A DNA stretch of 35,247 nucleotides from a virus, in IMG/VR virus record IMGVR_UViG_3300034683_000360, positions 1 to 35,247 of that record, one strand, 5' to 3'. The notes beneath the pieces were generated by a model. That model saw nothing but the letters and a program-made list of their open reading frames with translations. It made no database searches and was not told the DNA's origin. Position numbers and translations under genes: made by a program. Position 1 is the first letter of the stretch, and every line of letters begins with the position of its first letter. Positions 8,959 to 28,049 of the stretch are shown here, piece after piece.

Positions 8959-11496
8959 ATGGTACAAAAGAGAATATACAGCTACTTCGTTAGAAACCCG
9001 CAGCTTCATATACTGTTTGTTTTCGATCGAATGAATATCATCGAAACAGAACTAAAAGAGGTGGAGTGGAAAGAGGGATATCTTTATCAGGTTTTTGATG
9101 GGACGTGGTTTGCTACCAAGTATGCAATAGAGAATGATTGGAAGGATAAAAAAATAGTACTTCTTTTCCCTAAAAATACGTACCCGCACAGCGAAGCCGA
9201 GCAATTAAAGTTTCCGCTCTTAGATATGCTGATGGCGAATATGGAGTATAAAGAGGATGATTACGCCTCTTTTATGCAACAAAATGGCTTGCCTTCGAAG
9301 TTTAATTCGTTTGTTCAGCGCAATGTAACTGAGTTGATGAGCTCAAAAATTAATACCATATTGAGTGGGCAATTTAGCACTGATACATTTACGGAAGATT
9401 TGGCGTGCAGGGCATTTATTTCCTCCTATTTGGGCGAAAAGAAACTCTTGGAATGGGATACAATTATTGTTCGAATGATTATTTCGGGAGCGAACAGCGA
9501 AGAGAAGAAACATAACGATCTCTTTCGTCGCATAGAAAAGAATTTAGATGCAAAGAAAGCCATCGATAATAAGCTGAACTCTCTCTTTGGGTTTTCGTAC
9601 GATCGAAATTCTGAGACAAAAATGAAAGAGGTTGCCGAAAGTTTGAAATATAACTCTATGACACAGCTACTTGACAGCTCTTCAGCAGACAACTATAAGC
9701 AATACAAGGTAACTAACTCAGGCAAGCTCATTCAGCTAAACAAAATTTACGAAAAAGGTACACAAGATCGTTTATTGTCAGATAGATTCAATCAAGCGAT
9801 GATCACCCTGGCAGCAGGTATCAAAGAGGAAGAGATCATTAAGGTGTACGGAATAGATGCTCCTTATTTTTATATGACCGAAACACTCTGCTGGCCTATC
9901 ATCGAAGGAATGATAAAAGCGGAGCTGATTGCCGAACCGATGAAAGTGAATGAGCATATACGGGAATTAAGCTTAAAACTCCCGGAGCAATCGGTCATTC
10001 AGATTGTGTTTCGCTTTGTGGAACAAATGGCCCTCTATTACGAAAAAGCGCGCATCATCGGGACGTTGAAGCTTAACACACCGGAGGCATACATTCAAAA
10101 GTATTTGAATGAGTTCTATTCGGTAGATATGTGCTATCGCCGTGCCTTAGAGGCTTACCATGAGTTGATAACAAAAGAGATTCCCATCGATCAGGCTCTC
10201 TATAAGGCAAAGCTGCAACTCGACCAGGAATATGCCAAGATTGTCAATATCTTCAATTTGGAATGGATGAGTTGCGTAACGGAACAAGAAGATGGTTTCA
10301 ATACTCTATCGCTAAAACGTCAAGAAGATTTCTATTCCAATGAATACGATGCATCCTACAAACAGGTGGTCATTGTGTCGGATGCACTACGCTATGAGGT
10401 GGCTGCCGAATTGATGGAAGAGTTGGCGAAGGAGAAGCATGTTGCTACGCTCTCAGCCTATCGGGCAATGTTGCCTACCGAAACCAAGTATTGCAAACCC
10501 GCCTTGTTACCGCACCGTACATTGGAATGGCAGGGAAATGATTTGCTGGTAGATGGTAAGCTGTTGCCGGGTATTCCGGAACGTACAGCCCATTTGGCTA
10601 ACTATAAAGAAAATGCTATTTGTGTGAATTATGAGGAGGTAATGAATGCTGACCTACAATCGAATAGGACATTGTTCAAACGCCCATTGGTCTATATTTT
10701 TCATAATACGATTGATGAAGCGAGCCATTCGCAGAGTCCATTTGAGGTTATTGCTGCCTGTCGAAAAGCAATCCAGCAATTAGCGGTTCTGATAAATCGC
10801 CTCCATGCTTCGTGGAATGTAAACTATGTGATGCTGACTGCTGACCATGGGTTTATCTATAATGACATTCGTTTTGAAGAGAAGGATAAGCATTCGATAA
10901 AAGACGATTGCATAGAGAAGAAAACACGATATTATCTGACCAACAGCCAACAAGCAATAGATGGGATTGCTAAATTTCCGTTACAATCGGCATCGGGTAT
11001 GTCATCCAAAGAGGCCGTTCAAATAGCCGTTCCGCTCGGAACAAATCGGTTGGCAGCCCCGGGTGGGTATAATTTCGCTCATGGAGGCGCAACGCTTCAA
11101 GAAATGATCATCCCTGTTATTCACTCTAAATTGCGCAAGGTAGAGAAGACGGAGAAGGTTAATGTCGCTTTGATGAACCCGAATCTTTCGATGGTATCCA
11201 GTAGATTGAAGTTTCAACTGATTCAATCGGAAGCGGTGTCGATGAATGTAAAGGAACGAACGATTATTTGTGGTGTGTATAATGGAGATGATTTGGTGAC
11301 TGAAAGTAAAAGAGTAACATTAAACAGCACAGATTCCATCAATTTGAATAACCGGGTATATGACATTACGTTGATACTCAACAAATCGACAACTTCTACT
11401 ATGTTGCAACTTCGCATCTACGATGAAGAAGATATGCTCAATCCCATCATACGGGAAACGGTGAAAAATAATACGATGATTGAACAAGATTTTTAA
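8959..11496 (+). CDS. pglZ: BREX protein PglZ (alkaline-phosphatase-fold)
   Basis: An 845-residue PglZ of the type 1 BREX family. The N-terminus (VQKRIYSYFVRNPQLHILFVFDRM) is typical. The PglZ domain is in the C-terminal half, with putative metal-coordinating motifs VIVSDALRYE (D at about 475) and TADHGF (about 627-632), as in the alkaline phosphatase superfamily. PglZ is the signature BREX protein, required together with PglX for modification and defence; its enzymatic substrate is not established. It starts four bases after pglX and is followed after 11 bases by brxL, in the same operon. Confidence 0.94.
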   Translation: MVQKRIYSYFVRNPQLHILFVFDRMNIIETELKEVEWKEGYLYQVFDGTWFATKYAIENDWKDKKIVLLFPKNTYPHSEAEQLKFPLLDMLMANMEYKEDDYASFMQQNGLPSKFNSFVQRNVTELMSSKINTILSGQFSTDTFTEDLACRAFISSYLGEKKLLEWDTIIVRMIISGANSEEKKHNDLFRRIEKNLDAKKAIDNKLNSLFGFSYDRNSETKMKEVAESLKYNSMTQLLDSSSADNYKQYKVTNSGKLIQLNKIYEKGTQDRLLSDRFNQAMITLAAGIKEEEIIKVYGIDAPYFYMTETLCWPIIEGMIKAELIAEPMKVNEHIRELSLKLPEQSVIQIVFRFVEQMALYYEKARIIGTLKLNTPEAYIQKYLNEFYSVDMCYRRALEAYHELITKEIPIDQALYKAKLQLDQEYAKIVNIFNLEWMSCVTEQEDGFNTLSLKRQEDFYSNEYDASYKQVVIVSDALRYEVAAELMEELAKEKHVATLSAYRAMLPTETKYCKPALLPHRTLEWQGNDLLVDGKLLPGIPERTAHLANYKENAICVNYEEVMNADLQSNRTLFKRPLVYIFHNTIDEASHSQSPFEVIAACRKAIQQLAVLINRLHASWNVNYVMLTADHGFIYNDIRFEEKDKHSIKDDCIEKKTRYYLTNSQQAIDGIAKFPLQSASGMSSKEAVQIAVPLGTNRLAAPGGYNFAHGGATLQEMIIPVIHSKLRKVEKTEKVNVALMNPNLSMVSSRLKFQLIQSEAVSMNVKERTIICGVYNGDDLVTESKRVTLNSTDSINLNNRVYDITLILNKSTTSTMLQLRIYDEEDMLNPIIRETVKNNTMIEQDF

Positions 11497-11507
11497 TTCA
11501 CGGAAAT

Positions 11508-13574
11508 ATGACATTACAGCAAAAAATAATGAATTCTTTCTCCGGAAAGGTGGTTCGCAAAGATTTAGCATTTCTTGTGAAGGGTGGTCTTCCTGTGCCG
11601 ACCTATGTATTGGAATATCTACTGGGTCAATACTGCGCCAATGATGACGAGGAGGCCATTGAGATAGGGCTTGAAAAGGTCAAAGAAGTGATTCAAAACA
11701 ATTACGTTCATCGAGCAGATGCTGAATCTGTAAAAGGGAATATTCGAGAAGCCGGGAGGTACCGCATTATCGATAAGGTAATGGCAGTTCTTAATGAAAA
11801 ATCGGATGAGTACCAAGCCTCGTTTGCCAATCTTGGATTAACGAATGTGCCTATCGGCACGCAATATGTAAACTCAAATCCCAAATTACTTTCCGGTAAT
11901 GGCGTATGGTGCATAGTCACTCTTGGTTATATTCACGGGGAAGATATAAAAGTTCGCTGGGAGATACAAACACTGAAGCCAATTCAAATTTCAAATATAG
12001 ACTTGCAAGAATATATTGAACAACGTAAGAATTTTACGACAGACGAATGGCTTGATTTTATGATTCATACGATCGGATTAAATCCTGAAATGTTGAATCG
12101 TCGGGAGAAATTTATTTCACTTGCTCGTTTACTTCCTCATGTCGAAAGCAACTTCAATTTTATGGAGCTCGGACCGAAAGGAACTGGGAAGTCTCATGTT
12201 TTTCAGGAGCTATCGCCTTATGGAGTGCTTATAAGTGGCGGCGATGTAACAAGTGCCCGACTATTTGTGAAAATGCAAGGGAACAGGGAAATATTGGGGT
12301 TGGTTGGCTATTGGGACGTGGTGGCTTGGGACGAGTTTGAACAACAAAAAGGACGAAACGTAGATGCCGTATTGATTGATACCATGCAAAACTATTTGGC
12401 AAATAAATCATTCAATAGAGGAAAAGCGACCCACGAGGCATCTGCATCAATGACTTTTGTAGGAAATACAAAACATACCGTACCTTATATGTTGAAAAAC
12501 TCGCATTTGTTTGAGTCGATACCAACTTCTTTTATCAAGGGTGCTTTTTTAGATAGAATCCACCTTTATAATCCGGGATGGGAGATTCGTATGTTGAAGA
12601 AAGAGAGTTTCTCTACCGGTTATGGTTTAATTACAGACTATATTGCTGCTGTATTGCATGAACTTCGTAACAAGGATTTAACCAGTCTATTGAAGGATTA
12701 TGCAAAATTTGATCCGTCGCTATCGGAGCGTGATCATTTGGCTATCCGCAAAACATTCTCCGGAATGCTTAAAATTCTATATCCCGATGGGAATATAACG
12801 AGTGAAGAGGCATTCGAGTTGGTCGATTTTGCGGCGGAAAGTAGAAAGCGTGTAAAAGATCAATTATATATTATTGATGAAACGTTTAGAGCAGAACCAG
12901 CTTCTTTCAAATATCTCAACTTGAAAAATGGGAACGAGGTATTTGTAGAAACCTTGGAAAATATTAGCAATGGTATAACTCCTTCAGCTATTCCTGTAAG
13001 CAACACCTTAGATGATGCTGATGTAATACCAATGAACAAAGGAGAGGAACCCAGATCTCAATTAGAACCTTCTGATACAGAAAAAACAAAGCGTAATCGC
13101 ATCGCTGTCCTTCAAGAGAAGAGTTTGTCTTTTCGCATGGGACAAACGGGAGCTTCTTATGAAAAGCTCTTTGCAGCATATCTCGAAAAAGCAAATGAAA
13201 TTACGATTGAAGATCCCTATATCCGTGCACCATGGCAGATTCGAAACTTTGTGGAATTTGCAACCATGCTTGTAGATACCAGGCCCGTCGATGACTTGAA
13301 ATTAACATTAATAACCAACGAGGAAGAAGAGAAACTTCCGGATTTAATTGATCGGTTGGATGACATTAAAGATGATCTTGCCGGATATGGAATAACCTTT
13401 GAGTATAAATTTAGGGATTTTCACGATCGTTGCATCAGAACAGATACCGGCTGGACTATTACATTGGGTAGAGGATTAGATATTTTTGAGAAATACAATC
13501 CATATTCAGTTGCAGCGTCTCGCCAAGAAAAACGTAAATGTAAAGAGTTTATAATTACTTATAATAAGGAGTAG
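11508..13574 (+). CDS. brxL: BREX AAA+ protein BrxL, with an MIT_C-like C-terminus
   Basis: A 688-residue AAA+ protein that closes the BREX operon. Walker A GPKGTGKS is at residues 222-229 and Walker B VVAWDE at 271-276. BrxL forms ring-shaped assemblies on DNA and is needed for phage exclusion but not for host methylation in studied type 1 systems. Many BrxL proteins end in a Lon-protease-like domain; here I find no GPSAG-type serine motif. Residues about 549-685 instead carry ITIEDPYIR, then FHDRCI (about 638-643), GW and LGRGLDIF, the motif order of the MIT_C domain, a phospholipase-D-related fold. A linker around 480-545 separates the two parts. The identification of BrxL is secure; the C-terminal assignment is from motif memory. 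Confidence 0.92.
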   Translation: MTLQQKIMNSFSGKVVRKDLAFLVKGGLPVPTYVLEYLLGQYCANDDEEAIEIGLEKVKEVIQNNYVHRADAESVKGNIREAGRYRIIDKVMAVLNEKSDEYQASFANLGLTNVPIGTQYVNSNPKLLSGNGVWCIVTLGYIHGEDIKVRWEIQTLKPIQISNIDLQEYIEQRKNFTTDEWLDFMIHTIGLNPEMLNRREKFISLARLLPHVESNFNFMELGPKGTGKSHVFQELSPYGVLISGGDVTSARLFVKMQGNREILGLVGYWDVVAWDEFEQQKGRNVDAVLIDTMQNYLANKSFNRGKATHEASASMTFVGNTKHTVPYMLKNSHLFESIPTSFIKGAFLDRIHLYNPGWEIRMLKKESFSTGYGLITDYIAAVLHELRNKDLTSLLKDYAKFDPSLSERDHLAIRKTFSGMLKILYPDGNITSEEAFELVDFAAESRKRVKDQLYIIDETFRAEPASFKYLNLKNGNEVFVETLENISNGITPSAIPVSNTLDDADVIPMNKGEEPRSQLEPSDTEKTKRNRIAVLQEKSLSFRMGQTGASYEKLFAAYLEKANEITIEDPYIRAPWQIRNFVEFATMLVDTRPVDDLKLTLITNEEEEKLPDLIDRLDDIKDDLAGYGITFEYKFRDFHDRCIRTDTGWTITLGRGLDIFEKYNPYSVAASRQEKRKCKEFIITYNKE

Positions 13575-13677: not shown

Positions 13678-14931
13678 CTACACTTTTATAAAATCCTCCT
13701 GAATGCTTTTGATTAACTTTTCATCAATTCTCAATTCTCTTGCATGGGATTCAAACTTTGCAACGGCGTTGTAAACCGTATCAATCAAGGCATTGTAATC
13801 CTGTATATCGTTATTCTGTCCAACAGTTCCCAAATCTTCACGAGTAATATCTTCGTTTTTACCGTTTATGGTCAATGAATGCCTGTTGGAATATGCAGGA
13901 GCGGTTAAGTCAACGCTATACGTTAAGTCGTATGCGGGAGATAACCGCCAAATACCTTTCTTGTTCATGCAAAAGGAGAAATTCTTGGAATGGTCATCTA
14001 CATTACGGGTAGTCACATTGAAAACCATGCGAAGGAAATGCTGACGACTATCTTCATAAGGAAGATTAAGCCGTCTAATTACTGAAAATATATCTTCGTA
14101 GCTATCGCTTGTTGGTAACATCGCCGCCAATGTTTGCGTATGTATTTTTTCATTTCCTTCTCGGTCGAACCGTTGTGTAAGGAAATGCGTTACGCCATCA
14201 TACGTTCTTAATTCAGAAGGCATCATTTCTATTCCTGCATCCAGCGCCATTCGATAATATACATATTCCAATTTTGCATAAGGATATGCCGAGTTATCAT
14301 CGTATTTTAGAATATAATGTTGGAATCCTTCCGGAATTATACCTTGACCTGAAATAACTTCGCCTGTTCCTTTATTCAAAGCCACAATCGCCTTTGGTCG
14401 CTTTCCACCCGGCGAGGAGCTGATCTTGACCAAATCTTGCCAAAGAATGGAGTTTTCTTGATTCAATACGGTTGCTTCCCGCTCGTTTAGAACTTGTTTG
14501 GCAAACTCATACAACTTCTGCACATTAACCGAAAATACAGCGTTATCCCCCAATTTTTGAGCAGGCTCATACTCTAATGCTCCCATTGCCCGACTACCAA
14601 TAAAAGAAAGGTGGTCTACCGGATTCGTTTGCTTCGTGGAGATATTATTATCCCGCAGCCATGCCTTAAAAAGAGAATTTCCCCATTTATCGGGCAACGA
14701 ATCGGCAATCATTGGTGGCAGTCCTTGATAAAGTTTGTCCTTATCCCCAGTCCACGGTATTTGTTTCCGACTACGTGGAGAATCTATGGACATGGTTAAT
14801 GGAGCAATATCTAAACCTTGCTCTATAAACGAAGGCTCAAACTCAAAGACTGCTGTTCCCGCTTTCTTGTCCCATGAAAGATAGCCTACGTCCATCCCCC
14901 ATAACTTAACTTTTACTACGTTGGTTTCCAT
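13678..14931 (-). CDS. hipA: HipA-family serine/threonine kinase toxin
   Basis: A 417-residue HipA-like kinase. The N-terminal HipA domain contains FIGSRAMGALEYEP, a glycine-rich phosphate-binding loop SSSPGGKRPK lies at about 169-178, the catalytic motif is RNVDDHSKNF (D312, K316, N317), and the metal-binding motif is SPAYDLT (D335). These positions are close to those of E. coli HipA (D309, D332). HipA kinases phosphorylate translation factors such as glutamyl-tRNA synthetase and cause dormancy unless held by HipB; the target here is not known. The gene is convergent with brxL and starts three bases after the hipB stop, as a hipBA operon. Confidence 0.93.
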   Translation of the reverse strand: METNVVKVKLWGMDVGYLSWDKKAGTAVFEFEPSFIEQGLDIAPLTMSIDSPRSRKQIPWTGDKDKLYQGLPPMIADSLPDKWGNSLFKAWLRDNNISTKQTNPVDHLSFIGSRAMGALEYEPAQKLGDNAVFSVNVQKLYEFAKQVLNEREATVLNQENSILWQDLVKISSSPGGKRPKAIVALNKGTGEVISGQGIIPEGFQHYILKYDDNSAYPYAKLEYVYYRMALDAGIEMMPSELRTYDGVTHFLTQRFDREGNEKIHTQTLAAMLPTSDSYEDIFSVIRRLNLPYEDSRQHFLRMVFNVTTRNVDDHSKNFSFCMNKKGIWRLSPAYDLTYSVDLTAPAYSNRHSLTINGKNEDITREDLGTVGQNNDIQDYNALIDTVYNAVAKFESHARELRIDEKLIKSIQEDFIKV

Positions 14932-14934
14932 AGG

Positions 14935-15225
14935 CTATTTTTTACTTTGTTTTTTAAATAGGGTTCGAGGGCTCTTAGGCAGTTCCGGTAAAAGCTTTTC
15001 GACTTCCTCCAAACTGTCAATCGCCCGCAGCAGTTTGATAAACGAAGACAGTGTAATTCCGGTGGAAGAGCCATTCTCAAAAGAACTTATGGTAAATACA
15101 CTCAAGCCTGACTTTTCGGCAACCTCTTTCTGTGTATACTTCATCCGCTTGCGGTAATCACTATATCGCTTTCCCAACTCCCGGATTAATTCGCTACCTG
15201 TTTTCTCATACAATTCGCTGTACAT
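14935..15225 (-). CDS. hipB: HipB-like XRE antitoxin and repressor
   Basis: A 96-residue protein with a Cro/CI-type helix-turn-helix at about residues 30-52 (YTQKEVAEKSGLSVFTISSF) and a basic C-terminus. Position directly upstream of hipA with a three-base gap marks it as the antitoxin that neutralises HipA and represses the operon. The start at 15225 is the first ATG of the frame and lies about 20 bases downstream of a good Bacteroidetes promoter box. Nearby inverted repeats with GATAAA motifs are candidate operators. It is not obviously related to the short XRE regulator of the BREX operon. Confidence 0.9.
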   Translation of the reverse strand: MYSELYEKTGSELIRELGKRYSDYRKRMKYTQKEVAEKSGLSVFTISSFENGSSTGITLSSFIKLLRAIDSLEEVEKLLPELPKSPRTLFKKQSKK

Positions 15226-18144: not shown

Positions 18145-18471
18145 TTAGAAATCTCCTTTATATTGTTTTCTTATGCCAGTTTCAAAAGACTGGCTCCAGT
18201 CGGTTGGATCTCCATAGGGGTTAGGTGATTTACCTGGTAAATAGTCCTCAATAAAGCTCTTTTTCCATTCCTGGTAAGTCTCTTTCAATGGCTTATTTGT
18301 TCGTGAATCCAGGTAATTGAAATGGAACTCTCTCTCATACTCCCATAGTCTGGCAGCAAAAGGCTTTTCTTTGTCCCCTATGTAGGGATTCTCAGCCTCT
18401 CCTTTGTACCAGCGATAATTAGAGCAATCTTCTGTTATTCCTGAGAGGTAAGTTTGATCTGTCCTTTTCAT
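18145..18471 (-). CDS. Unknown element protein, 108 residues
   Basis: Last gene of the leftward unit. The protein is polar and rich in aromatic and charged residues (NYRWYKGEAENPYIGDKEKP, WEYEREFHFNYLD), with no signal peptide, membrane segment or motif I recognise. Its start overlaps the stop of the preceding gene by four bases (ATGA at 18468-18471), so it is translationally coupled to the 81-residue protein. Position beside attL, behind cargo genes and a candidate ncRNA, is where mobile elements often keep accessory or host-interaction genes. No function can be assigned. Confidence 0.75.
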   Translation of the reverse strand: MKRTDQTYLSGITEDCSNYRWYKGEAENPYIGDKEKPFAARLWEYEREFHFNYLDSRTNKPLKETYQEWKKSFIEDYLPGKSPNPYGDPTDWSQSFETGIRKQYKGDF

Positions 18472-18713
18472 ACTGTATTAAAACGTTTTTCCATTATATC
18501 ATCAGCAACGGTAAAGCCATACATCTCACCAAGCATATTTATAGCATTACTCATACTCTTAGTAGATCCTGTTATACGATCTCCAAAAAATTCACTCAAT
18601 AGAGGATTATCACCAAGATCCTTTAAACCATCATTTACTCTTTTAAGATCTTGCATCAATACCAGCATACTCTCCCTAACTTGCTGGTAGTTATCTGGTT
18701 CATTATATTTCAT
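18468..18713 (-). CDS. Unknown element protein, 81 residues
   Basis: A small helical protein (MKYNEPDNYQQVRESMLVLM..., then a GDRITGSTKSMSNAINMLGE segment). I use the ATG at 18713 rather than a TTG two codons upstream. It overlaps the preceding gene by 11 bases and the following one by four, making a three-gene coupled cassette. No transmembrane segment or known motif is visible. The alternating hydrophobic pattern would suit a small adaptor or a helical bundle, but function is unknown. Confidence 0.72.
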   Translation of the reverse strand: MKYNEPDNYQQVRESMLVLMQDLKRVNDGLKDLGDNPLLSEFFGDRITGSTKSMSNAINMLGEMYGFTVADDIMEKRFNTV

Positions 18714-18969
18714 ACTCAATAGTATAAGAATAGAACAAAGTTAATAACATAACTCTGGAAAATTTGTTTCCACTTATTTCCTCTGAATCAATCATATCAT
18801 TAATAAAGCCTTTTCCAAAAGTGCATATAGCCATTCCTTTTGAGATTAAATCTTTTTTAGGATCCATAAGTTTAATAAATTGTGCTCTTCCAATCTCAGC
18901 CATACCCGTGAGAATGTTTGTTAGCTCAAAAAGTTCAAGATTAATCATTTTTTGTAATTTTGATAACAT
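18703..18969 (-). CDS. Unknown element protein, 88 residues
   Basis: First of three coupled small genes. The protein is mostly helical and hydrophobic in parts (MINLELFELTNILTGMAEIG; FSRVMLLTLFYSY near the C-terminus), so weak membrane association is possible, but no clear transmembrane helix is seen. The ATG at 18969 lies only 8 bases after the T-tract of the candidate ncRNA terminator, so expression may depend on read-through, an attenuation-like arrangement. No family is recognised. Confidence 0.72.
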   Translation of the reverse strand: MLSKLQKMINLELFELTNILTGMAEIGRAQFIKLMDPKKDLISKGMAICTFGKGFINDMIDSEEISGNKFSRVMLLTLFYSYTIEYEI

Positions 18970-18977
18970 TATAGCAC

Positions 18978-19156
18978 AAAAAAAACGGTGTGCCTTTCCC
19001 GTTTGCTATCACCTATTACAAAGGCTGTGGTGGCATTAACCAATCACACAGGGGTACACACCGCTAATATCTTAGCATGCAGATCTGACCAATGAATACA
19101 AAAGATCCACCGTTATGAAAGCAGTGGATATATCCACCTTTGTAATATGTGATAGC
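18978..19156 (-). ncRNA. Candidate structured ncRNA of about 175 nt
   Basis: On the minus strand the 5' arm GCTATCACATATTACAAAGG (19156-19137) pairs with the 3' arm at 19024-19005 at 19 of 20 positions. Inside the 112-nt loop are three local hairpins: GTGGA-TATA-TCCAC (19137-19124, overlapping the closing stem by one base), GCTAA-GATA-TTAGC (19076-19063), and CTGTG...TGG/CCA...CACAG (19051-19025). Directly after the closing stem comes AAACGG-10 nt-CCGTTT followed by eight T (18985-18978), an intrinsic terminator. A -7 box at 19161-19168 would start transcription at the first bases of the closing stem. This is the layout of an independent ncRNA, or of an attenuated leader for the gene at 18969. 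I do not recognise the family. Confidence 0.65.
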
Positions 19157-19160
19157 GTGA

Positions 19161-19168
19161 CAAAAATA
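19161..19168 (-). promoter_or_regulatory. Promoter -7 box of the candidate ncRNA
   Basis: TATTTTTG on the minus strand fits TAnnTTTG, and start of transcription about 7 bases on would be near 19154. The 13 bases GTGACAAAAATAG (19157-19169, plus strand) are identical to the integrase promoter at 34960-34972. No exact -33 TTTG is seen. Confidence 0.5.
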
Positions 19169-19222
19169 GAAAGTTTCTTTCAATTGAAAAAGTATTCATG
19201 GCTTTTTTGTTGATTATCATGC

Positions 19223-19244
19223 AAAAATGTGTTTGTCAAACACA
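19223..19244 (-). terminator. Intrinsic terminator of the lipoprotein gene
   Basis: On the minus strand TGTGTTTG-a-CAAACACA (19244-19228) forms an 8-bp stem followed by TTTTT (19227-19223). It lies just past the stop codon of the lipoprotein gene. Confidence 0.75.
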
Positions 19245-19247
19245 CTT

Positions 19248-20147
19248 TTAAAGATTGATATTATTGTCCTCTCCCCACAGATCGTTTACCGTTATAGTTA
19301 AATCTTTATTTCCGATGGTACTAAACAGATTCCCACTAATAATACTCCTACGATTATCATAAATGGGTACTGTTAGTTGTTTCTCAAATAAAACCACATC
19401 ATTAACCCCTAATACCTTTATGGTAACAGTTATGTTCTGAGGACGTGTTACATAATAATCAAACACATCCATCTTTGTTGCCCCCAGAGTAGCCTCATAG
19501 GTATTGGTTACAAAATATTGCAGATCGGTTCCACTGGATCCCAGGCAGTACCATCTGTTGTACTCGCTAATAGTTACAGTCACTTTCTTAACATCTGGTA
19601 TAAGATCATCCAATATATTAACCCTCATTAATCCACCCATACGAGGTAAATTAATATCAAAATTAGTGCTCTCTGCTGATACTGTCAGATCTCCAGTGTA
19701 ATAGAATACTTCTTTATCAGACATCTTGAAATAGCTGTCATAGTACAGTTTATCACTAAAGTTATTAGCATAGAAATAGCCTTTTCCTTTGCCTTGTGCA
19801 TAAAATATAACTTTATATGTACCAGGGACTAATTTTATAGTGACTTTGCCAAAATCTACAGGAACAGCATCAACACCAGGTGTATATGAACTGCTTCCTT
19901 TTGCAACGATATTTGAGGTTGTTGCATTATAAATATAGTAAGAAATGGAGCTTACTACATCAGCCGTGTTTGCTGCTCTGGTTTGTACCCTGGCTTTGCT
20001 GCTTAATGGCTCAACATTGACAGTGAGAGGGTTTAAATTGAATGTTACTGAGATTGGTTTACTTATTGGAGTTTCATTCTCCATAGATTTACTGCATGAT
20101 GTTAGTAGCAGTAACAGCATTGAAAAGATTTTGATTTTTCTAATCAT
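19248..20147 (-). CDS. Outer-surface lipoprotein, FimB/Mfa2-like
   Basis: A 299-residue protein starting at the ATG at 20147 (MIRKIKIFSMLLLLLTSCSK), preceded by AAAGGAA. An in-frame start ten codons upstream is not favoured. A basic N-terminus, hydrophobic core and the lipobox LLTSC give a lipoprotein signal with the lipidated cysteine at about residue 18. The mature part is beta-rich and threonine/serine-rich, with VTFNLNPLTVNV, VKLVPGTYKVIFYAQGKG-like and NLPRMGGLMRVNI segments, resembling fimbrillin anchor proteins of the FimB/Mfa2 type. It should sit on the cell surface as cargo that changes the host envelope, for example phage receptors or adhesion (inference). Terminators lie on both sides. 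Confidence 0.72.
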   Translation of the reverse strand: MIRKIKIFSMLLLLLTSCSKSMENETPISKPISVTFNLNPLTVNVEPLSSKARVQTRAANTADVVSSISYYIYNATTSNIVAKGSSSYTPGVDAVPVDFGKVTIKLVPGTYKVIFYAQGKGKGYFYANNFSDKLYYDSYFKMSDKEVFYYTGDLTVSAESTNFDINLPRMGGLMRVNILDDLIPDVKKVTVTISEYNRWYCLGSSGTDLQYFVTNTYEATLGATKMDVFDYYVTRPQNITVTIKVLGVNDVVLFEKQLTVPIYDNRRSIISGNLFSTIGNKDLTITVNDLWGEDNNINL

Positions 20148-20240
20148 AATGATTCCTTTGATTTTAGTTATTTGCAATATTGCCGTGCAAAATTACAGCT
20201 AAAATCTCTATCACTATGATTCCTGGAGTATTTACCTGGT

Positions 20241-20273
20241 AAATAAAAAGGCGTGCATTGAGGAATACACGCC
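20241..20273 (-). terminator. Intrinsic terminator of the DUF4468-like gene
   Basis: On the minus strand GGCGTG (20273-20268) pairs with CACGCC (20255-20250), with an inner ATT/AAT extension, followed by TTTTTATTT (20249-20241). It lies 24 bases past the stop of the secreted protein gene. Confidence 0.8.
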
Positions 20274-20296
20274 AGGTAAGACTATTTTGTTTGAAT

Positions 20297-20878
20297 TTAC
20301 CAGTCCTGTTTATTTGATTCTAAACCTTTCTTGAAAGCTTCAATATAAGAGCTGAAATATGATTCCAGTTGGTTCTTTGCATATTCGGCTTTTAGATCTC
20401 CTTTTTTGTTATAGATACAATTGATAATCTCGGATCCAAAACCTCCATTTGAGGATCCTAATAAAATCATTTTTATTGGTTTAGATCCACTTTCATAATC
20501 GCTGAGGCTAAAAGCAGGTGCATCAATTCTTATCTTACCATCCTTAAACCTAATCACTATTGTATAATTCATATCATAGGCAACAGCAACCATTCCCATA
20601 GCTTTTTTTATAACAGCCTTTGTCTCAATACCATTGATTGTTATTACATCTGGAGCAGATTCACTTAATACATCCTTTGGTGATTTGTAAATGGTAGTCA
20701 GATAGGTTTTTGCTTTGTTGAATAACTCAGATTGTGAACCAGTAGCATCTATAACAATGAAATTTTTACTTTGATCTTTGGAGTCAACAAACCCGTTTGA
20801 AGTTAAAGAGAAACTCTGAGCAAAAATATTTCCTGTTGTCAAAGCTACCAGGCAAAGCACTAATAGAATTTTTTTCAT
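20297..20878 (-). CDS. Secreted DUF4468-like protein
   Basis: A 193-residue protein starting at the ATG at 20878 (MKKILLVLCLVALTTGNIFA). It has a signal peptide with likely cleavage after IFA or IFAQ, so it is exported to the periplasm. The mature part (ATGSQSELFNKAKTYLTTIY, TKAVIKKAMGMVAVAYDMNYTI, then a conserved-looking YDM-Y-I-I-FKDGKIRI segment) resembles the DUF4468 family, a TBP-like fold common in Bacteroidetes with no known function. Within the element it is cargo between the tail genes and the lipoprotein. It has a long structured leader upstream and its own terminator, so it appears to be separately expressed. Confidence 0.75.
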   Translation of the reverse strand: MKKILLVLCLVALTTGNIFAQSFSLTSNGFVDSKDQSKNFIVIDATGSQSELFNKAKTYLTTIYKSPKDVLSESAPDVITINGIETKAVIKKAMGMVAVAYDMNYTIVIRFKDGKIRIDAPAFSLSDYESGSKPIKMILLGSSNGGFGSEIINCIYNKKGDLKAEYAKNQLESYFSSYIEAFKKGLESNKQDW

Positions 20879-20929
20879 AACATTATATTTGAAGTTAGTA
20901 AACATCTATTTGCTGCCATTGCCCATAAA

Positions 20930-21071
20930 AAAGGTACGTGGGCAATTACCCATATTGGTAAAGAGGCATCGCCAAACGCCCACACCCCCATATAAGTAAC
21001 GCCCACGTATATCTGGGCGTTTTACTTATTGTTTGTTGGAGTGTAATAAAATTGGCGATTTTCTTTACCCA
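20930..21071 (-). ncRNA. Large folded leader or second candidate ncRNA
   Basis: Outer arms 21071-21051 and 20975-20955 pair through TTGG, GTAAAGA/TCTTTAC and ATCGCCAA/TTGGCGAT with small bulges. Inside are ACACTCC/GGGGTGT and a hairpin AAGTAA(aa)CGCCCA/TGGGCGTTACTT (21027-20994). A weak hairpin GGTA/TACC followed by TTTTTT (around 20934-20925) could end a transcript. It lies between the tail operon and the DUF4468-like gene and may be the 5' leader of the latter, a terminator complex, or a separate RNA. Confidence 0.45.
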
Positions 21072-21107
21072 AAAACAATAGCAAACGCTATATTTCATGA
21101 TTTTGAG

Positions 21108-21115
21108 CAAATATA
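21108..21115 (-). promoter_or_regulatory. Promoter -7 box upstream of the folded leader
   Basis: On the minus strand TATATTTG matches TAnnTTTG exactly. It is 33 bases downstream of the last tail-operon stop codon and would start transcription near 21101, ahead of the large folded structure and the secreted protein gene. No clear -33 TTTG. Confidence 0.5.
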
Positions 21116-21140
21116 CATCATTTTTCATTATGATAACACT

Positions 21141-21650
21141 TTAGTAATAAAGTTTATTGTGTTTTCTAACAATGATACCATCACCAATGCACTGAGCCTG
21201 GGCATTACCATAAAGATTGATAAATACCTGAGCATCGCTTCCAGCCGTTGCAACAACCAGATTTGTATCATCAAAAGCATCTATAGTAACTATAGCATTA
21301 TTTTCGACATTGACAGCTCCCTCACTATTGTGCCTTGCAAATATTCTGGCTACAGTGTAACCAGAATACCTGAGCATCGCTTTACAGTGCCCGTTTAGTA
21401 CCACATCAGGACTATCTACTAAATCCGAAATCTCATCATCAATAAAAATCCCAAACTCCTCACATTTACCCTTAAAATTCTCTCTCATAAATTCAAGGGT
21501 TGGAAAATCTTCACTGATACAAAAATCTATACCTTTTACATACAGTTGTACCAGGTTATCCATATTCAGCCCTGGTTTTAGCTTCCATTGCCACATACGG
21601 CATAAACCCTTTGTTATACCGTCTTTTTTGAGTTGTTGTATTGTTTTCAT
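21141..21650 (-). CDS. Phage tail-associated protein downstream of the tape measure
   Basis: A 169-residue protein whose ATG overlaps the last base of the tape measure stop codon, so the two are coupled. The N-terminal half (GLCRMWQWKLKPGLNMDNLV, CISEDFPTLEFMRENFKGKC) is helical. The C-terminal half (VARIFARHNSEGAVNVENNA, VVATAGSDAQVFINLYGNAQ) looks like a short beta-helix or solenoid, a shape common in tail tips and fibres. I have the impression that similar proteins follow tape measure genes in other Bacteroidales prophages. A tail-tip or baseplate role is inference. Confidence 0.75.
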   Translation of the reverse strand: MKTIQQLKKDGITKGLCRMWQWKLKPGLNMDNLVQLYVKGIDFCISEDFPTLEFMRENFKGKCEEFGIFIDDEISDLVDSPDVVLNGHCKAMLRYSGYTVARIFARHNSEGAVNVENNAIVTIDAFDDTNLVVATAGSDAQVFINLYGNAQAQCIGDGIIVRKHNKLYY

Positions 21651-24600
21651 TATGATATTCCTTTTGATAGCAAAGAGCTACCGTTGTTTTTAATTTCGTT
21701 GAGAGCAGATTTTATCTCTTTTAATTCAGCAGCACTGGCTCCAGTATTAGCAGCTGTTTGTTGATGGTAAATAAGAGACTGTCTGAGTACCGAAATACCA
21801 TCAGCCTGGTTTATCACCACGGCTCCCAGTTTGCCCGCTACAATTCCTCCAGTTTCTTCACTTAGAGATTTTACAGCTCCAGTAGTCGGATCCTCAGTAG
21901 TAGCCGTATCTGTATCCTTAATCCAATCACCTATACCAGATAAAGCTTTATTGAATATCTCTCCACCAGCATTAACCATAGCTTCAAATTTAGCCCTCTC
22001 CTCATCGGTAAGCTCATTATCTTTCATAGCCGAACCTAAGTATACCACAGCATCATTGATAGCCTTAGCCAGGAATTGACGTTTCAAAGCCTCAACAACA
22101 GCTTTTTTCAGTACCTCCTTAGTTTTTTCGCCCAGTGCATCAGCAGCATTTTCACCTTTCACGTAAGCATCCACAAGAGCATCAGCAAATTCATCTATGG
22201 CACTCTGAACATCGGTACCAGCCAAAGTTTCCATCATTGCCTGATCCAGATCCTCAATTTGCTGGTTAATGGTTTCTATTTTTTCCTCCCAGTCGCTGAT
22301 TTTACCCTTGTCAGTTTTCTTTTTAGCTTCCTCCGCCTGTATCTGCTGTTTAATATCCTCCTGCTGCTTTCTAAGGTTTTCCTTTTGCTGTTCGTATAGC
22401 CCAAACATATCATCCCCCTCTTTAGCTTTTGAAAGAGCAGCCTGGAGTTCCTGGATCTGTTTGGTGAGCTGAGCATATCTGACAAAATCCCAGCTCCGAG
22501 CTGCTACACGTGCCTGTTCTTTTAATGCAGCGATCTGATCGTTGATGAGACTAACATTCTTCTCAAAGGCACTCTTTTGGGCATCATTAAAAACCCAGTA
22601 AGTATTATTATAAGCTCTCTCCAGACGGCTATAAGATTGCTCCAGGGCATCAATTTCTTTCTGGAGGTTCTGGATCTTCTTTTCATATTTAGCATCATGT
22701 ACTTTGGCAAAAATGCTGATAACAGAAGTAATGGAACTAACCAATCCAGTAACACCGCCAATAATATCCCCAGACATTATTTTGCCGACACTGGCAGCTG
22801 CATTGCCTAATTCTCCCATGAGATCCATTGCAGTACCCAGACCAGAAGCCAGATCCTCATTGCCCAGGGCATCAAACATAGAAGCCAGCGAATTGCCACA
22901 CTCAGTAGCTATGCCTGTAACCTCCTGGATTGATTTTGTTACTCCCTTAGCTGCTGTTTTTACCTCTTTCTGTGCCTCATCAACATCTTTTTGTGATCCT
23001 TTGCCTGAAAGAGCATCCGTTTTGGCTTTTGCCAGCTTCTTTTTAGCCTCCACATAATCATCAAAGAACTTTCCAAGAGCCTTGAATGGGTTCTTTTCTA
23101 TGATCTTATCCTTTGCCTCATTCAAGCTATCAATCACAGCCTTGTAATCTACTGGATTCAGTTTCAGATCAGATTTGCTGAGCTTGTTTTGAATATCATC
23201 AACCAGCTTAGAGATCTCCCCAGCTGTTAGTGAATCCATATCTTGGAAAAGCTTTTGCCAGCTATCAGACTGTTTGAGGAACGTACCATTTAGAGCGGAT
23301 AATTCCTGAGCCTCTGCTTTATTGATTTGTTTCAGGCGTTCATCATCACCCATTTTCTGAGCCTGGGATCTGAGCAAAGAATATTCATCCTGGATGGATT
23401 TTCTTTGTTCCTCATAAGTACGATACTCTTTGAGGAGTTTATCATTTAGCTCTTTGTCAGTTTCATCTTTCATTTGAGACAGAACTAAACGACCTGATGC
23501 CTTTGCATCATCTCCCACTAAGCCAGATGTACCATTCTTTAGTTTATCCTGGTAATCTGCAATCACTTTCAGTTTTTCTGCAAGGGTATTGGCTCTATTT
23601 ATTGACTGAGTAAAGCTTTCTTTAAAAGTATCAAGAGCTGATTTTTTGCCAGTGATCTCATCCAGCTGGGTATTCAAATTGATAAGGTAATTAGATTCTC
23701 CCTCTGAAATGGTTCCATCGTTCTTTTTGGATGTGAGATTTTGTATTTCTTTCTCTATATAATCCTTGTAAGATGTACCGCTTTTAAGCAAGTCTTTAAA
23801 CCGATTATTAGCCACATCCTCACCCATATTCTTTACCCAGCGGAAATAAAGCTCATACTGGCTTTTCTTGTACTCAATTTCACCATCAAATAGTTTGTTC
23901 TGAGCTTTGCTATAGCTGGCATCTTCATTTGTCCTACGGGCGTTAAATTCGCTTTTCTCTTTAGAGGATAATTCACCTTTCCCAGCATCTCTCCTGGCTT
24001 TCTCCAGTTCTTTCTCCTCCTTATTGATCTGAGCAATGTTTTGTTTATGCTGGAGCTCCAGGAGTGCCTTTCTCTTAGCATACCCCTCATCCATGATCTC
24101 GATCCTGGACTGTTCCGCTTTCAGTTCAGCCTGGATCTGCTTTTCTGCCAGCTGCTGTGCTTTGTTAGCAGCTGTGTCTGCACTCTTGGCTGTTGGTGTA
24201 CTTTTACCAGTAAGAACACTTAATTTTGTTTCTGCTGCCTTTAAGTCTTTAGTTCTATTCTCTATCTCCTCAGCAATATTATCTTTCAGAACTTTTCCAG
24301 ATCTTAAATCACTAATCTCTTTTTTGATACTGTTAATTTGTGATCTGGTTTCAGATATTTGTTCTGAATATGTTTTTGCTGATTTAGTTGATTCGTTAAG
24401 ACTAAGTGAAGTTTCAGAGATCTCTTTATTCAAATCATCAATAGTTGTGTTTACTGATTTAATATCATTTTGAGTTTTATCCAGAGCTTTCTTTGCATTG
24501 TTCTCCTCCTCTACACCAAAAAAGCGTGATATTTTTGCTGTAAAACCATTGCGGTCATAGCCTTGTAAGGTATTAGTTTGTCTTACATCCCAGTATTTAT

Positions 24601-26761
24601 CACTTTGCGATGATTCTGTTTTCTCCAAAGTCCTCTTTTGCTTATAAGCTTGCTCCAGTTCATCCTGTGCAGCTTTCAGTTTTATCTGCTTTTCAAGCTG
24701 GGTTAAGTACTTCTCTATTGCATCTGTATTATCATTAATGATCTTTCCCTCCTTAGTCAGTTCAGCATTGTAGCCTGGTATGATCTGTTTTAACTCATTT
24801 AGGGCTTTATTCCTCTCAAAATAAGCGATATTGCCATCATTAATAATTTTCTTTAGCGTGTCAACTTTAGCAGCTTGCTTGCCAAACTCCTCAGTTACAT
24901 CTTTTGTCGCTTTAGCCAGTCCTGTGATGGTTTCTGTTCCATCCTCCTGCTTTTTAAAGAACATTTCATAAGCACTATAAGCAATCCCTAAAATGCTTAC
25001 TATCCAGCCTATTGGATTAGCTTTCATGGTAGCCCAAAGAGCTTTAAGCCCCAGGGATAATTTGGTGGTAGCAGCATCCAGTAATGATGTGGCTACTGTC
25101 TGAGCCTCTTTTGTTGTTGTGTCGGCTGCACTGGCAACGGTTGACTGCCTGGTAGCAGTTGTTTCCAGGAGCTTCTTTTTTGTGTAGAAGTCAGAGGATG
25201 CTGCCAGTGCTGTTTTGCGTGCAATAGCTTGATTTTCCACAGCTCCCTCCAGCTTTTTCTCAGCTGTGGTTATCCGGGTTACATCTCCAGACTGTTTAGC
25301 CCAATAAAGTTCGTACCTGGCAGATTCAACGGCCTGCATTGATGAGACGGCTGATAATTTTGCCGTTTCCATCTTTACAGCAGCTGCTTTCACATTTTCA
25401 CGCATGGCTGCCATTGTAGCAGCAGTGCTCTGATTCTTTGCCAGTACTTCCTTTTCAAGGGCTACCTGGTAAATAGCACTTTTAGCGGATAGATCTGTTT
25501 TACTTAGTGCCTCTCTCTGTTCTACAGAAAGCACACCCATAGCAACCGCCTCATAGTTTGCGCTGGAGGTGGTTACATTCAAATTTGAAAGATATTCCTG
25601 CTGTTGGGCTGTAAGGAGTTGCTCAATGGTAGCTATTCTCAACTGCTTAGCCAGGTTTGCCTGTTCTTCAACAGTGAGCTGTTTTTGCAAGGATGCTGTG
25701 TGAGCTTCCTGGGCTGCTGTCATTTTTGCAGTTATAGCTGCTGTCTTGCCAGTAGCAGCCTCATCCGCTTTCATGAGGGCTATCTTAGCCTGTCTAACAG
25801 TGTTATCAATCAGAGAAACACCAGTGTATCCCTTAGTCGCTAATGTATTTAAAACAATAGCAGCCCTATAGGATCCATAAGCAATAGCAATAGCTTTGAC
25901 AATTCTAAGAACATCATCCAAGTGCTCAACGACCGTGATAGCCCCAGAAATACCTGATTCAAGTGCTCCCTGATTATCTTCACCAAGTTTATTCAGAGCC
26001 ATATCCCAGGAATCCCCCAGGTTAGAGATCATACCAGTAAGAGATTTACTTTGCCGTTCCATTAGATTGTAGAACTGCCCACCCGAATTAGTCATTTTGT
26101 TAATGACTTTCTCAACCTCAGGGAAACCGATCTTTCCCTCAGATACCATAGCGTTGATCTCCTCAGCGGTTTTGCCGTACATGGCAGCCAGCTCTCTTAC
26201 CAATGGAATACCTCTACCAGTGAACTGCCTTACATCCTGAGCATATAAACGCCCTTGCACCATTGTGGTACCATACAGGTAAACAATATCATTCAGAGGA
26301 ATGGAAAGCCCTGAGGCTATATTTCCAAGCCTTACAAGCGTATCATTTACCTTGTTTGCAGATTCACCATAGGCTAACAGCTGTTTTGCTCCACCTGCAA
26401 CTCCCATAAGGTCAAACGGGGTTCTGGCTGCTGTATTGGTAAGCTGATCCATGAGAGCCTTTGACTTAGCACCGCTGCCCAGCATTGTATCAAATGCAAT
26501 CTGTAGCTGCTGGAATTGCCCACGTGTTTGAACGATACTGTTCACAAGTCCCATCATACCACCGCCAACCAGAGTGCCGATGATATACCTGGCTCCATTT
26601 TGAGCAAATGCAGCTATGGATTGCTCCATCTTTTCAGATTCCTGGACTGCTGTAGTAGAAACGTTCCTGATCCTACGCTCCATAGCATCAGCAGACACTT
26701 TAAAATCATCTATATTGAGGGTTGCCTGAAAAGCCAACCCTCCACCAATATTTTCACTCAT
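21650..26761 (-). CDS. Phage tail tape measure protein, 1703 residues
   Basis: The N-terminal 60-260 residues form a tape measure domain (MGLVNSIVQTRGQFQQLQIA, FDTMLGSGAKSKALMDQL, ARTPFDLMGVAGGAKQLLAY, FTGRGIPLVRELA). A hydrophobic segment near 585-615 (GWIVSILGIAYSAYEMFF) and another glycine-rich one near 1330-1370 would suit membrane insertion at DNA ejection. Between and after them lie long charged coiled coils. Tape measure proteins set the length of a long non-contracted or contractile tail; at roughly 1.5 angstroms per residue this one implies a tail of about 250 nm. It overlaps the preceding small gene by 8 bases. No capsid or terminase genes accompany it. Confidence 0.95.
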   Translation of the reverse strand: MSENIGGGLAFQATLNIDDFKVSADAMERRIRNVSTTAVQESEKMEQSIAAFAQNGARYIIGTLVGGGMMGLVNSIVQTRGQFQQLQIAFDTMLGSGAKSKALMDQLTNTAARTPFDLMGVAGGAKQLLAYGESANKVNDTLVRLGNIASGLSIPLNDIVYLYGTTMVQGRLYAQDVRQFTGRGIPLVRELAAMYGKTAEEINAMVSEGKIGFPEVEKVINKMTNSGGQFYNLMERQSKSLTGMISNLGDSWDMALNKLGEDNQGALESGISGAITVVEHLDDVLRIVKAIAIAYGSYRAAIVLNTLATKGYTGVSLIDNTVRQAKIALMKADEAATGKTAAITAKMTAAQEAHTASLQKQLTVEEQANLAKQLRIATIEQLLTAQQQEYLSNLNVTTSSANYEAVAMGVLSVEQREALSKTDLSAKSAIYQVALEKEVLAKNQSTAATMAAMRENVKAAAVKMETAKLSAVSSMQAVESARYELYWAKQSGDVTRITTAEKKLEGAVENQAIARKTALAASSDFYTKKKLLETTATRQSTVASAADTTTKEAQTVATSLLDAATTKLSLGLKALWATMKANPIGWIVSILGIAYSAYEMFFKKQEDGTETITGLAKATKDVTEEFGKQAAKVDTLKKIINDGNIAYFERNKALNELKQIIPGYNAELTKEGKIINDNTDAIEKYLTQLEKQIKLKAAQDELEQAYKQKRTLEKTESSQSDKYWDVRQTNTLQGYDRNGFTAKISRFFGVEEENNAKKALDKTQNDIKSVNTTIDDLNKEISETSLSLNESTKSAKTYSEQISETRSQINSIKKEISDLRSGKVLKDNIAEEIENRTKDLKAAETKLSVLTGKSTPTAKSADTAANKAQQLAEKQIQAELKAEQSRIEIMDEGYAKRKALLELQHKQNIAQINKEEKELEKARRDAGKGELSSKEKSEFNARRTNEDASYSKAQNKLFDGEIEYKKSQYELYFRWVKNMGEDVANNRFKDLLKSGTSYKDYIEKEIQNLTSKKNDGTISEGESNYLINLNTQLDEITGKKSALDTFKESFTQSINRANTLAEKLKVIADYQDKLKNGTSGLVGDDAKASGRLVLSQMKDETDKELNDKLLKEYRTYEEQRKSIQDEYSLLRSQAQKMGDDERLKQINKAEAQELSALNGTFLKQSDSWQKLFQDMDSLTAGEISKLVDDIQNKLSKSDLKLNPVDYKAVIDSLNEAKDKIIEKNPFKALGKFFDDYVEAKKKLAKAKTDALSGKGSQKDVDEAQKEVKTAAKGVTKSIQEVTGIATECGNSLASMFDALGNEDLASGLGTAMDLMGELGNAAASVGKIMSGDIIGGVTGLVSSITSVISIFAKVHDAKYEKKIQNLQKEIDALEQSYSRLERAYNNTYWVFNDAQKSAFEKNVSLINDQIAALKEQARVAARSWDFVRYAQLTKQIQELQAALSKAKEGDDMFGLYEQQKENLRKQQEDIKQQIQAEEAKKKTDKGKISDWEEKIETINQQIEDLDQAMMETLAGTDVQSAIDEFADALVDAYVKGENAADALGEKTKEVLKKAVVEALKRQFLAKAINDAVVYLGSAMKDNELTDEERAKFEAMVNAGGEIFNKALSGIGDWIKDTDTATTEDPTTGAVKSLSEETGGIVAGKLGAVVINQADGISVLRQSLIYHQQTAANTGASAAELKEIKSALNEIKNNGSSLLSKGIS

Positions 26762-27002
26762 GATCGTTTACTCTTTGTTGTTTTTGATACTCAATGAGTT
26801 GTTTTAAGGATCTGCCAATGTTTGCATAGAATCCTATTAAAGCCTCATTCTTTCCATTCTCATTGCTTTTTAGTAGATCATCCACCAAATACCCTAATGT
26901 TACTATTTGATTTTCTGGGTTATTTAAGTGAGCTGCATCTTTATTCCTGGCATTCAGGATTACATCCTGTAGAGCGCATTGGATTAATTTATCATCTATC
27001 AT
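26754..27002 (-). CDS. Small protein preceding the tape measure
   Basis: An 82-residue acidic, helical protein (MIDDKLIQCALQDVILNARN...) that overlaps the tape measure start by 8 bases. In siphophages and myophages the gene just before the tape measure usually encodes a tail assembly chaperone. Length and position fit that idea, but no sequence motif proves it and no frameshift product is apparent. The gene starts a new unit after a 129-bp gap carrying a 20-bp repeat copy. Confidence 0.7.
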   Translation of the reverse strand: MIDDKLIQCALQDVILNARNKDAAHLNNPENQIVTLGYLVDDLLKSNENGKNEALIGFYANIGRSLKQLIEYQKQQRVNDHE

Positions 27003-27081
27003 AATTCTTCTTTTTAGCTATTCACTTTCTTTATAAGAATGTGAAAAATACATGTTATTACCTTGATTTATAGATTATAAT

Positions 27082-27121
27082 GCAAATCGTATTTGCTTCT
27101 GGAGACAATCCAGTGACAAAA
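27082..27121 (-). promoter_or_regulatory. Regulatory gap before the tape measure unit, with repeat copy 2
   Basis: The 129-bp gap 27003-27131 holds an inverted repeat, GCAAAT-cgt-ATTTGC (27082-27096), and the middle copy of the 20-bp repeat (27102-27121), TTTTGTCACTGGATTGTCTC on the minus strand, with one base changed in the second half-site. It lies upstream of the tape measure unit, so a regulator that also acts at both element ends may control tail genes. No consensus -7 box with correct spacing is seen; TATTTTTC on the minus strand (27053-27046) is close. Confidence 0.5.
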
Positions 27122-27131
27122 CAGGACGTTT

Positions 27132-27587
27132 TTATACTTTTTCCTCAGCAGTTAAAGCATTTCCCTGTGGATTTTGCAGTATTTTGGGTAAGTAGTCCTC
27201 ATTAGCTACCTTAGTGCGCCATTCTTGATACTCTGGAGAGAGCAACAAAGACAAATATTCTTTCATGTCGTTTTGTATTTCTTCTGTAGGAGTTGCTAAA
27301 TCATAGGAAAGATCAACATATAAGAACTGTTCTAATGGAACTACATGTACATTATCAGCACTAACCTCTAATAGTTGGTCGTAAAGCTTATAATATACTT
27401 TATCCTCCTGAAATATTAGTTTTACATAACGAGGATTCTCTGGATCTGGTCTGTTATCTTCCAGTTTTACCAATGGCTTAAATCCATCAGGAATAGTTAT
27501 CTCTACACCAGCAGCCTCGGCAGCCTCATCATCAACTACTAATGTCTCATAGTAATCATTACAGCCATATCTAATAAATTCTTTCAT
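27132..27587 (-). CDS. Unknown element protein, 151 residues
   Basis: An acidic protein (FIRYGCNDYYETLVVDDEAA, PRYVKLIFQEDKVYYKLYDQ) with mixed alpha/beta character and no signal peptide or known motif. Its start overlaps the stop of the preceding gene by four bases. Location between a fibre-like gene and the tape measure unit suggests a virion or assembly role, perhaps in the tail or baseplate, but there is no direct evidence. It ends before the 129-bp regulatory gap. Confidence 0.72.
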   Translation of the reverse strand: MKEFIRYGCNDYYETLVVDDEAAEAAGVEITIPDGFKPLVKLEDNRPDPENPRYVKLIFQEDKVYYKLYDQLLEVSADNVHVVPLEQFLYVDLSYDLATPTEEIQNDMKEYLSLLLSPEYQEWRTKVANEDYLPKILQNPQGNALTAEEKV

Positions 27588-28045: not shown

Positions 28046-28049
28046 AATC

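Follow-up and report, generated by a model that had tools for sequence, protein, structure and literature searches.

A pseudoknotted structured-RNA family of Bacteroidota phages and prophages with a probable C4-like antisense role

On the minus strand of a 35,247-nt viral sequence (IMG/VR record IMGVR_UViG_3300034683_000360, the whole of which is called the window here), a stretch of about 175 nt between a lipoprotein-like ORF and three small ORFs is laid out like an RNA gene and ends just short of the next start codon. The question is whether this element is an independent non-coding RNA, the first choice of a first-pass annotation made from the letters alone, or a leader of the genes that follow, which that annotation gave as its alternative. 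Here, we address this question through the homologues of the element and the genes behind them.

Layout of the element in the window

The -7 box TATTTTTG occupies 19168-19161 on the minus strand. After a gap of four bases comes an arm of 20 nt (19156-19137); 19 of its positions pair with 19024-19005 and the remaining one is an A.G mismatch, giving the closing stem P1. Directly 3' of the second arm stand AAACGGGAAAGGCACACCG and eight T (T8, 18985-18978), and 8 bases past T8, at 18969, lies the ATG of an 88-aa ORF (ORF88). The 20-bp closing stem, the -7 box, the T-tract and the 8-base gap to the ATG had all been described in the first-pass annotation and were verified in the sequence. The 211-nt minus strand has a predicted folding energy of -66.4 kcal/mol (z -4.16), which none of 200 dinucleotide shuffles equalled. 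The features are listed in the order of the minus strand; the labels a1-, a2-, a'-, b1- and b'-like refer to the comparison with the C4 RNA made below.

19229..19243, no strand assigned: palindrome GTGTTTGTCAAACAC, candidate operator or upstream-gene terminator, at fixed spacing to the box
19161..19168, minus: Bacteroidota -7 box TATTTTTG (TAnnTTTG), conserved just 5' of the RNA
19137..19156, minus: P1 5' arm, its first ~9 nt being the "tag" (a1-like)
19124..19137, minus: P2 hairpin GTGGATATATCCAC, from the alignment; by inspection, most homologues have a small hairpin here
19091..19110, minus: P3 hairpin with a U-rich loop, double-sided changes in 3/3 tested pairs
19048..19063, minus: pseudoknot 5' strand CGGUGUGU-ACC-CCUGU (b1-like), from covariation of the outer and inner helices
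19026..19047, minus: P5 hairpin with a UUAAUG-type loop, double-sided changes in 6/6 pairs, 95.4% paired
19005..19024, minus: P1 3' arm (a'-like), putatively antisense to the ORF88 start, from the family tag matches and the window duplex
18986..19002, minus: pseudoknot 3' strand ACGGG-AAAG-GCACACCG (b'-like), from covariation
18978..18985, minus: U-run, probable intrinsic termination point, present in 46/48 members
18950..18969, minus: start of ORF88, copy of the P1 5' arm (a2-like target), best of 286 ORF starts
18703..18969, minus: ORF88, predicted first regulated gene, phrog_17289, with a relative in loci L011 and L054
18468..18719, minus: 83-aa ORF, probably of the same operon, no family
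18145..18471, minus: 108-aa ORF, assigned to the family phrog_28232, probably of the same operon

The palindrome at 19229-19243 is the only exact copy in the window, with 0.08 expected by chance (at most 2 mismatches). It precedes the TAnnTTTG box by 60-61 nt in the window, L011 and L054, and in L014, a related element with another gene behind it, a different promoter follows at a distance of 60 nt. We regard this palindrome, GTGTTTGNCAAACAC, with its sites in the window (19229-19243), at L011:8458, L054:1415 and L014:954 and 977, as a candidate phage operator or activator site.

Elsewhere in the window, PADLOC and Pfam identified a six-gene BREX operon (432-13574, plus strand) encoding BrxA, BrxB, BrxC, PglX, PglZ and BrxL, which is adjoined by a HipA-like kinase gene with an HTH partner (13678-15225, minus). 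Upstream of the RNA, on the minus strand, are genes for a DUF4468 protein and a lipoprotein-like ORF (20297-20905 and 19248-20177); in locus L023, a lipoprotein that looks similar by eye is encoded downstream of the RNA. The window also holds a phage-like module (18145-34966, minus) with an integrase, a DnaC-like loader and a tape measure, in which no terminase or capsid family was found among the ORFs scanned; the module is possibly a partial prophage or a satellite.

A structured-RNA family with an H-type pseudoknot

Homologues were recovered by several routes. An exact 20-mer of the window 5' arm retrieved L011 and a conserved 3' pattern retrieved L023; a model built from these two and the window detected L003 (41.9 bits), in which the stem sequence is almost wholly different, and had matches in 12 of 393 Bacteroidales genomes. 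Isolates with a copy include Parabacteroides sp. PF5-9 (L037) and Bacteroides sp. 224 (L041). A scan of viral contigs with the core pattern yielded 31 loci, 31 of which contained a model match, although this agreement speaks for specificity only, because the core pattern was derived from the family itself. In total, 60 model matches less two antisense ones gave 58 matches, and merging of six exact duplicates left 52 distinct members. The 48-member set omits L083, L072 and L078, and the partial member L074 is without an anchor in the duplex analysis. A second model, R2, was built from 40 of the 48 members, omitting the window, L011, L023, L054, L062, L091, L088 and L077. R2, to which neither the window nor any of its three nearest relatives contributed, detects the window with 85.3 bits (E 3e-19); of 395 genomes of the phylum it matches 4, and it has no match below E 0.5 on 25 unrelated loci.

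The first-pass annotation had recognised no known family, which is correct as far as Rfam 15 goes: the covariance search of the window reached the gathering score of no family, and the weak matches (Arrc11, DapZ, miRNAs) were far below gathering scores and implausible. Bacteroidales-1 RNA (RF01693), a structured RNA of Bacteroidales in Table 1 of PMC2864571, had no Rfam match to the window or to 20 homologue loci, and no DNA similarity to the element was found in phage and plasmid collections. No description of the family was found in the open literature searched, including the accessible parts of PMC2864571, PMC8040213 and PMC11109978 (subscription papers and preprints lay outside this scope). 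Several pattern sites were chance occurrences rather than homologues, namely L022, 19 of the 21 matches of one genome scan and 5 of the 7 of another. Relatives reached through the 108-aa protein mostly lack the RNA, no copy being found in L002, L004, L006, L008, L009 and L010. On this comparative evidence, the window element belongs to a real, previously unlisted structured-RNA family of Bacteroidota phages and prophages.

The flanking signals recur throughout the family. The motif [TC]AnnTTTG lies just 5' of the RNA in 48 of 48 aligned members (31 with TA, 17 with CA), compared with 189 of 6900 random 34-nt stretches, and a U-run of at least four follows the RNA in 46 of 48, compared with 9% of 1920 control stretches.

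The homologue alignment that the first-pass annotation had proposed as a search for compensatory changes was run, and the closing stem is both kept and covarying, contrary to the outcome named there as a refutation. In the 40 homologues without the window, 92.0% of cells pair, with a covariation score of 0.511; shuffled alignments give 0.173 (0/500 reach 0.511), and sliding the partner gives 0.07-0.12. In the same 40 homologues, the P1a segment is paired in 97.3% of cells, with double-sided changes in 9 of 10 pairs; such changes affect 7 of 8 pairs in the outer helix of the pseudoknot and 1 of 5 in the inner helix, which is 100% paired. The outer pseudoknot arms show a mean contiguous pairing of 7.09 nt versus 2.06 nt when shuffled (maximum 3.78 in 2000), a count that is anchored on core motifs and covers the 45 of 48 members that could be parsed (23 distinct arm pairs). 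This family-wide covariation and arm pairing identify the supposed terminator stem as the 3' strand of a pseudoknot of the H type, which sits directly on the closing stem and has U's after it. Locally, the GC-stem drawn ahead of the T-run forms a weak hairpin; its 3' side has its conserved partner in the internal strand 19063-19048. As for the three loop hairpins initially drawn, P5 and P3 are conserved by covariation, but a GCTAA/TTAGC hairpin is seen, by eye, in the closest relatives only. RNAalifold alone returned a mixed structure, because it cannot hold a pseudoknot, and this structure was set aside. At the level of sequence, then, the alignments establish the fold, with its pseudoknot, along with the promoter box and the U-run.

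A tag with a second copy where the next gene begins

The opening ~9 nt of P1 are present again where the following ORF starts, which makes the P1 3' arm an antisense sequence to this start. The tag copy may cover the start codon, as in L100 (ATGCATTCCAC), or stop 3-4 nt short of it, as in L082 (TTGCATTCCAAAATG). Taken as its reverse complement, the P1 3' arm has an exact match of at least 8 nt within the next 140 nt in 31 of 48 members, and 30 of these 31 matches lie at -16..+12 of the listed start; in the exception, L086_707, the wrong ORF had been listed, and the match falls at an ATG of a 129-aa ORF itself. L100 and L003 are examples of members that are better matched than the window. The other 17 of 48 members, among them the window and its closest relative L011, lack such an exact match. 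Among the 47 of 52 members with a recognised anchor, a match of at least 8 nt occurs in 30 of 47 own pairs, versus 59 of 2162 cross pairs. Likewise, the duplex energy is -12.86 for own pairs versus -9.08 for permuted partners (sd 0.27; best of 5000, -10.19; n=50), and in 20 of the 27 members with a locus of at least 5 kb, the next ORF is in the top 5% of all ORF starts of the locus.

Close relatives that differ in the tag provide a further comparison, and all 24 of 24 such pairs keep the match to their own target. Copies within one phage or genome differ in their tags. Two copies in G368 are 97% alike elsewhere and have 1 of 6 tag positions in common; two copies in L100 are 94% alike, with 3 of 6 tag positions in common, and their proteins begin M-HS-TENTCLQ and M-LY-TENTCLQ, the tag overlapping the codons there. 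Tags of paralogues were taken by model-based extraction, a strict regex having missed most copies. A greater divergence of tags within than between genomes was not supported (2.43 vs 2.87 of 6 positions in common), and identical tags number 0 of 7 within a genome and 4 of 98 between genomes; tags diverge as fast between genomes as within, so they give no separate sign of cross-talk avoidance inside a genome. In the sequences compared, the three tag copies co-vary. The claim of an RNA gene thus stands in part, inasmuch as the order of promoter, stem, hairpins and terminator recurs in 48 aligned homologues, but "independent" does not fit a tag that is repeated at the next start codon and co-varies with it; from this link to the next gene, we judge the alternative of a leader or attenuator of the following cassette to be nearer the truth.

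In the window itself, none of the other 286 ORF starts considered resembles the P1 5' arm as closely as that of ORF88 does (rank 1 of 286), a similarity that 6 of 5000 dinucleotide shuffles equal. Over the ORF88 ATG, the P1 3' arm can form a duplex of 8+8 bp with an internal loop (-14.2 kcal/mol), an energy equalled or bettered in 11 of 200 shuffles and at 6 of the 49 other loci, and by duplex energy the ORF88 start is 8th of 286, or 13th with another probe and region. In the nearest relative, L011, the next ORF start ranks 99 of 101, without such a match. Given these energy ranks and the L011 mismatch, we take the tag rule as established for the family and as likely, not certain, for the window copy. 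The ORF88 product shares 42% identity over 53 aa with the L011 protein, and no close relatives were found in viral contigs.

The first downstream ORFs fall into 38 clusters, varying by locus, and are very diverse and not metabolic. Among 29 downstream proteins scanned (28 first ORFs of the 38 clusters and one second ORF), we identified three Bro-N/ANT antirepressors, one Rha regulator and two SymE-like proteins, and a KilA-N/ANT or P22_AR_N antirepressor is the second ORF in L003, L085, L092, L094, L090 and L100. The three downstream ORFs of the window include no recognised antirepressor. Antirepressor-like ORFs (KilA-N/ANT, Bro-N, P22_AR_N, Rha-like) make up 14 of 397 ORFs of at least 100 aa in 41 loci, and 11 of the 14 start 10-431 nt downstream of the RNA on the same strand, in a set of loci that were fetched via the RNA or its neighbours, many of them short, with ten queries drawn from downstream genes. 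In L079, L086 and L101, an antirepressor-like gene ends about 50 nt upstream of the RNA on the same strand. Some copies precede small proteins that by eye appear to span the membrane, some of which adjoin tail tape-measure genes. The SymE-like proteins, of a type I toxin family, are encoded at L060:2164-2460 (second ORF) and L069:1687-2013 (first ORF) and are the only toxin matches among the next proteins; a Pfam scan of 126 of the 130 distinct downstream proteins, four long ones being left out, found no toxin of the ToxN, CptN, TenpN or AbiF type.

Comparison with C4 and other readings

The closest functional analogue, absent from the first-pass annotation, is the C4 RNA of phages P1 and P7. 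C4 is described as repressing ant expression and underlying P1/P7 heteroimmunity (PMC12197685, PMC8198154). Four nucleotides that differ in C4 and its targets are said to restrict cross-action, and the RNA is given as 77 nt, RNase P-processed, with a' and b' in loops (PMC5320573). The annotation order in the phage P1 record is promoters, a1, b1, c4, a2, b2, icd, ant. The present family resembles C4 (RF01695), with its targets c4-a1b1 (RF03163) and the c4-icd-ant operon, in layout, a promoter box preceding an RNA that lies upstream of its putative target on the same strand; a short complement, a', matches an upstream copy, a1, and a target copy, a2; a second pair, b', may be present. By analogy, the P1 3' arm would be a' and the pseudoknot 3' strand b'; the RNA would act on translation initiation at the gene that opens an operon, in many cases one with an antirepressor; and specificity would reside in a few variable nucleotides.

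There are also differences. C4 has 77 nt, compared with ~175 nt here, where the P1 arms bear the tag, the upstream pairs form a pseudoknot and a U-run would terminate the RNA. The host phylum differs, C4-type RNA phage immunity being listed for Proteobacteria and their phages in Table 1 of PMC2864571. Here, the tag and b1 lie upstream but b2 and the tag downstream, the downstream order being reversed relative to C4, and many copies precede genes other than antirepressors. Past the U-run, one subfamily has a strong b2-like partner (GUUCCCUUUCCCGU after ACGGGAAAGCGGAAC), whereas that of the window is weak, at 5 bp. The Rfam C4 model (RF01695) had no match in the window at E<=10 and none at gathering in the window or 20 loci, whereas phage P1, as positive control, scored 68.8 bits; between C4 and the window family, there was no sequence or model match in either direction. 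We file the window RNA with the C4 kind by functional analogy, not as a member of the C4 family.

On the sequence evidence, we consider it probable that the window RNA is a C4-like phage leader antisense RNA of a separate family, and by analogy it most likely silences the next gene as the C4 immunity RNA of phage P1 does. From the features described above, we infer transcription, termination, repression and a role in immunity as follows. Transcription would begin just before the closing stem, and the RNA would fold co-transcriptionally into P1 and the H-type pseudoknot, with the U's after the 3' strand of the latter. Most transcripts would end at the U-run, giving a discrete RNA of ~175 nt, and some would read through into ORF88 and later genes. 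Besides matching the 5' arm of the same RNA, the P1 3' arm is predicted to be complementary to the sequence around the start codon of the gene that follows; by pairing with that start, in cis or in trans from the terminated RNA of a resident copy, it would block translation. An obstacle for this mechanism is that P1 (19/20 paired) forms first, so that antisense pairing needs P1 to be opened or bypassed. A comparable case is sar of phage P22, described in PMC12197685 as a small phage RNA repressing antirepressor translation by pairing. The likeness to the window family lies in the small phage RNA and in the repression by pairing that is proposed here. Unlike the putative leader in the window, sar is not known to be part of the same transcript as its target.

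We regard it as rather unlikely that the element is instead a translational switch acting only in cis, in which an aptamer of P1, the pseudoknot and P5 would sense a ligand or protein, the folded state holding the P1 3' arm and leaving the start free, and the unfolded state letting that arm block the start, with no action in trans. The anatomy is that of known translational riboswitches, in which the P1 3' strand sequesters the start in mutually exclusive pairings; the GUACCCC/GGAAAGG core and the UUAAUG loop are near-invariant across the family; and free drift of the tag, with divergence within genomes not above that between them, fits a purely cis pair. However, the downstream gene set, very diverse and not metabolic, is unlike a metabolite regulon, a U-run after the pseudoknot would halt the "on" state, and the antirepressor context fits an immunity function. 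An independent trans-acting RNA with a function unrelated to the next gene, as first annotated, would account for the promoter box, compact fold and U-run of its own and for a next gene that differs between loci (38 clusters), but the tag copy at the next ORF start and the triple covariation make it improbable.

Lower still, we place a locus like type III toxin-antitoxin systems, in which the pseudoknotted RNA would bind and neutralise the protein encoded next. The order of promoter, pseudoknotted RNA, terminator and small gene agrees with it, as does the likeness of a structured RNA with a terminator before a gene in these systems and in the phage AbiF system, the associated RNA of which is active in cis and trans according to PMC12373285. 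By inspection, however, all 48 aligned members have one non-repeated RNA unit without tandem repeats, and no known type III toxin is found among the next proteins. An antisense tag at a start codon, as seen here, is not known to be part of type III systems and counts against this reading. Finally, a DNA-level element (a single-strand origin, or a packaging or recombination site) is barely credible. The strong inverted repeats of this phage sequence speak for it; against it, many of the counted pairs are G-U, both the -7 box and the U-run are specific to one strand, and the covariation includes a pseudoknot with U's after it.

Returning to the C4-like antisense reading, we tentatively extend it, with less confidence than we have in the assignment of the window RNA, to a re-targetable RNA cassette for immunity and gene silencing in Bacteroidota phages, a pseudoknotted leader RNA in which a hypervariable tag of ~6 nt would set the immunity group, with several copies per genome before different genes, and which would have evolved independently of the C4 of the P1 type. 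A separate RNA family that does the job of C4 in Bacteroidota phages would, if confirmed, provide a testable rule, namely that the tag predicts which prophage silences which gene. Such a rule would apply to lysis-lysogeny and superinfection in gut phages, and the RNA would offer a re-targetable regulator that is compact and has a pseudoknot fold of a new kind.
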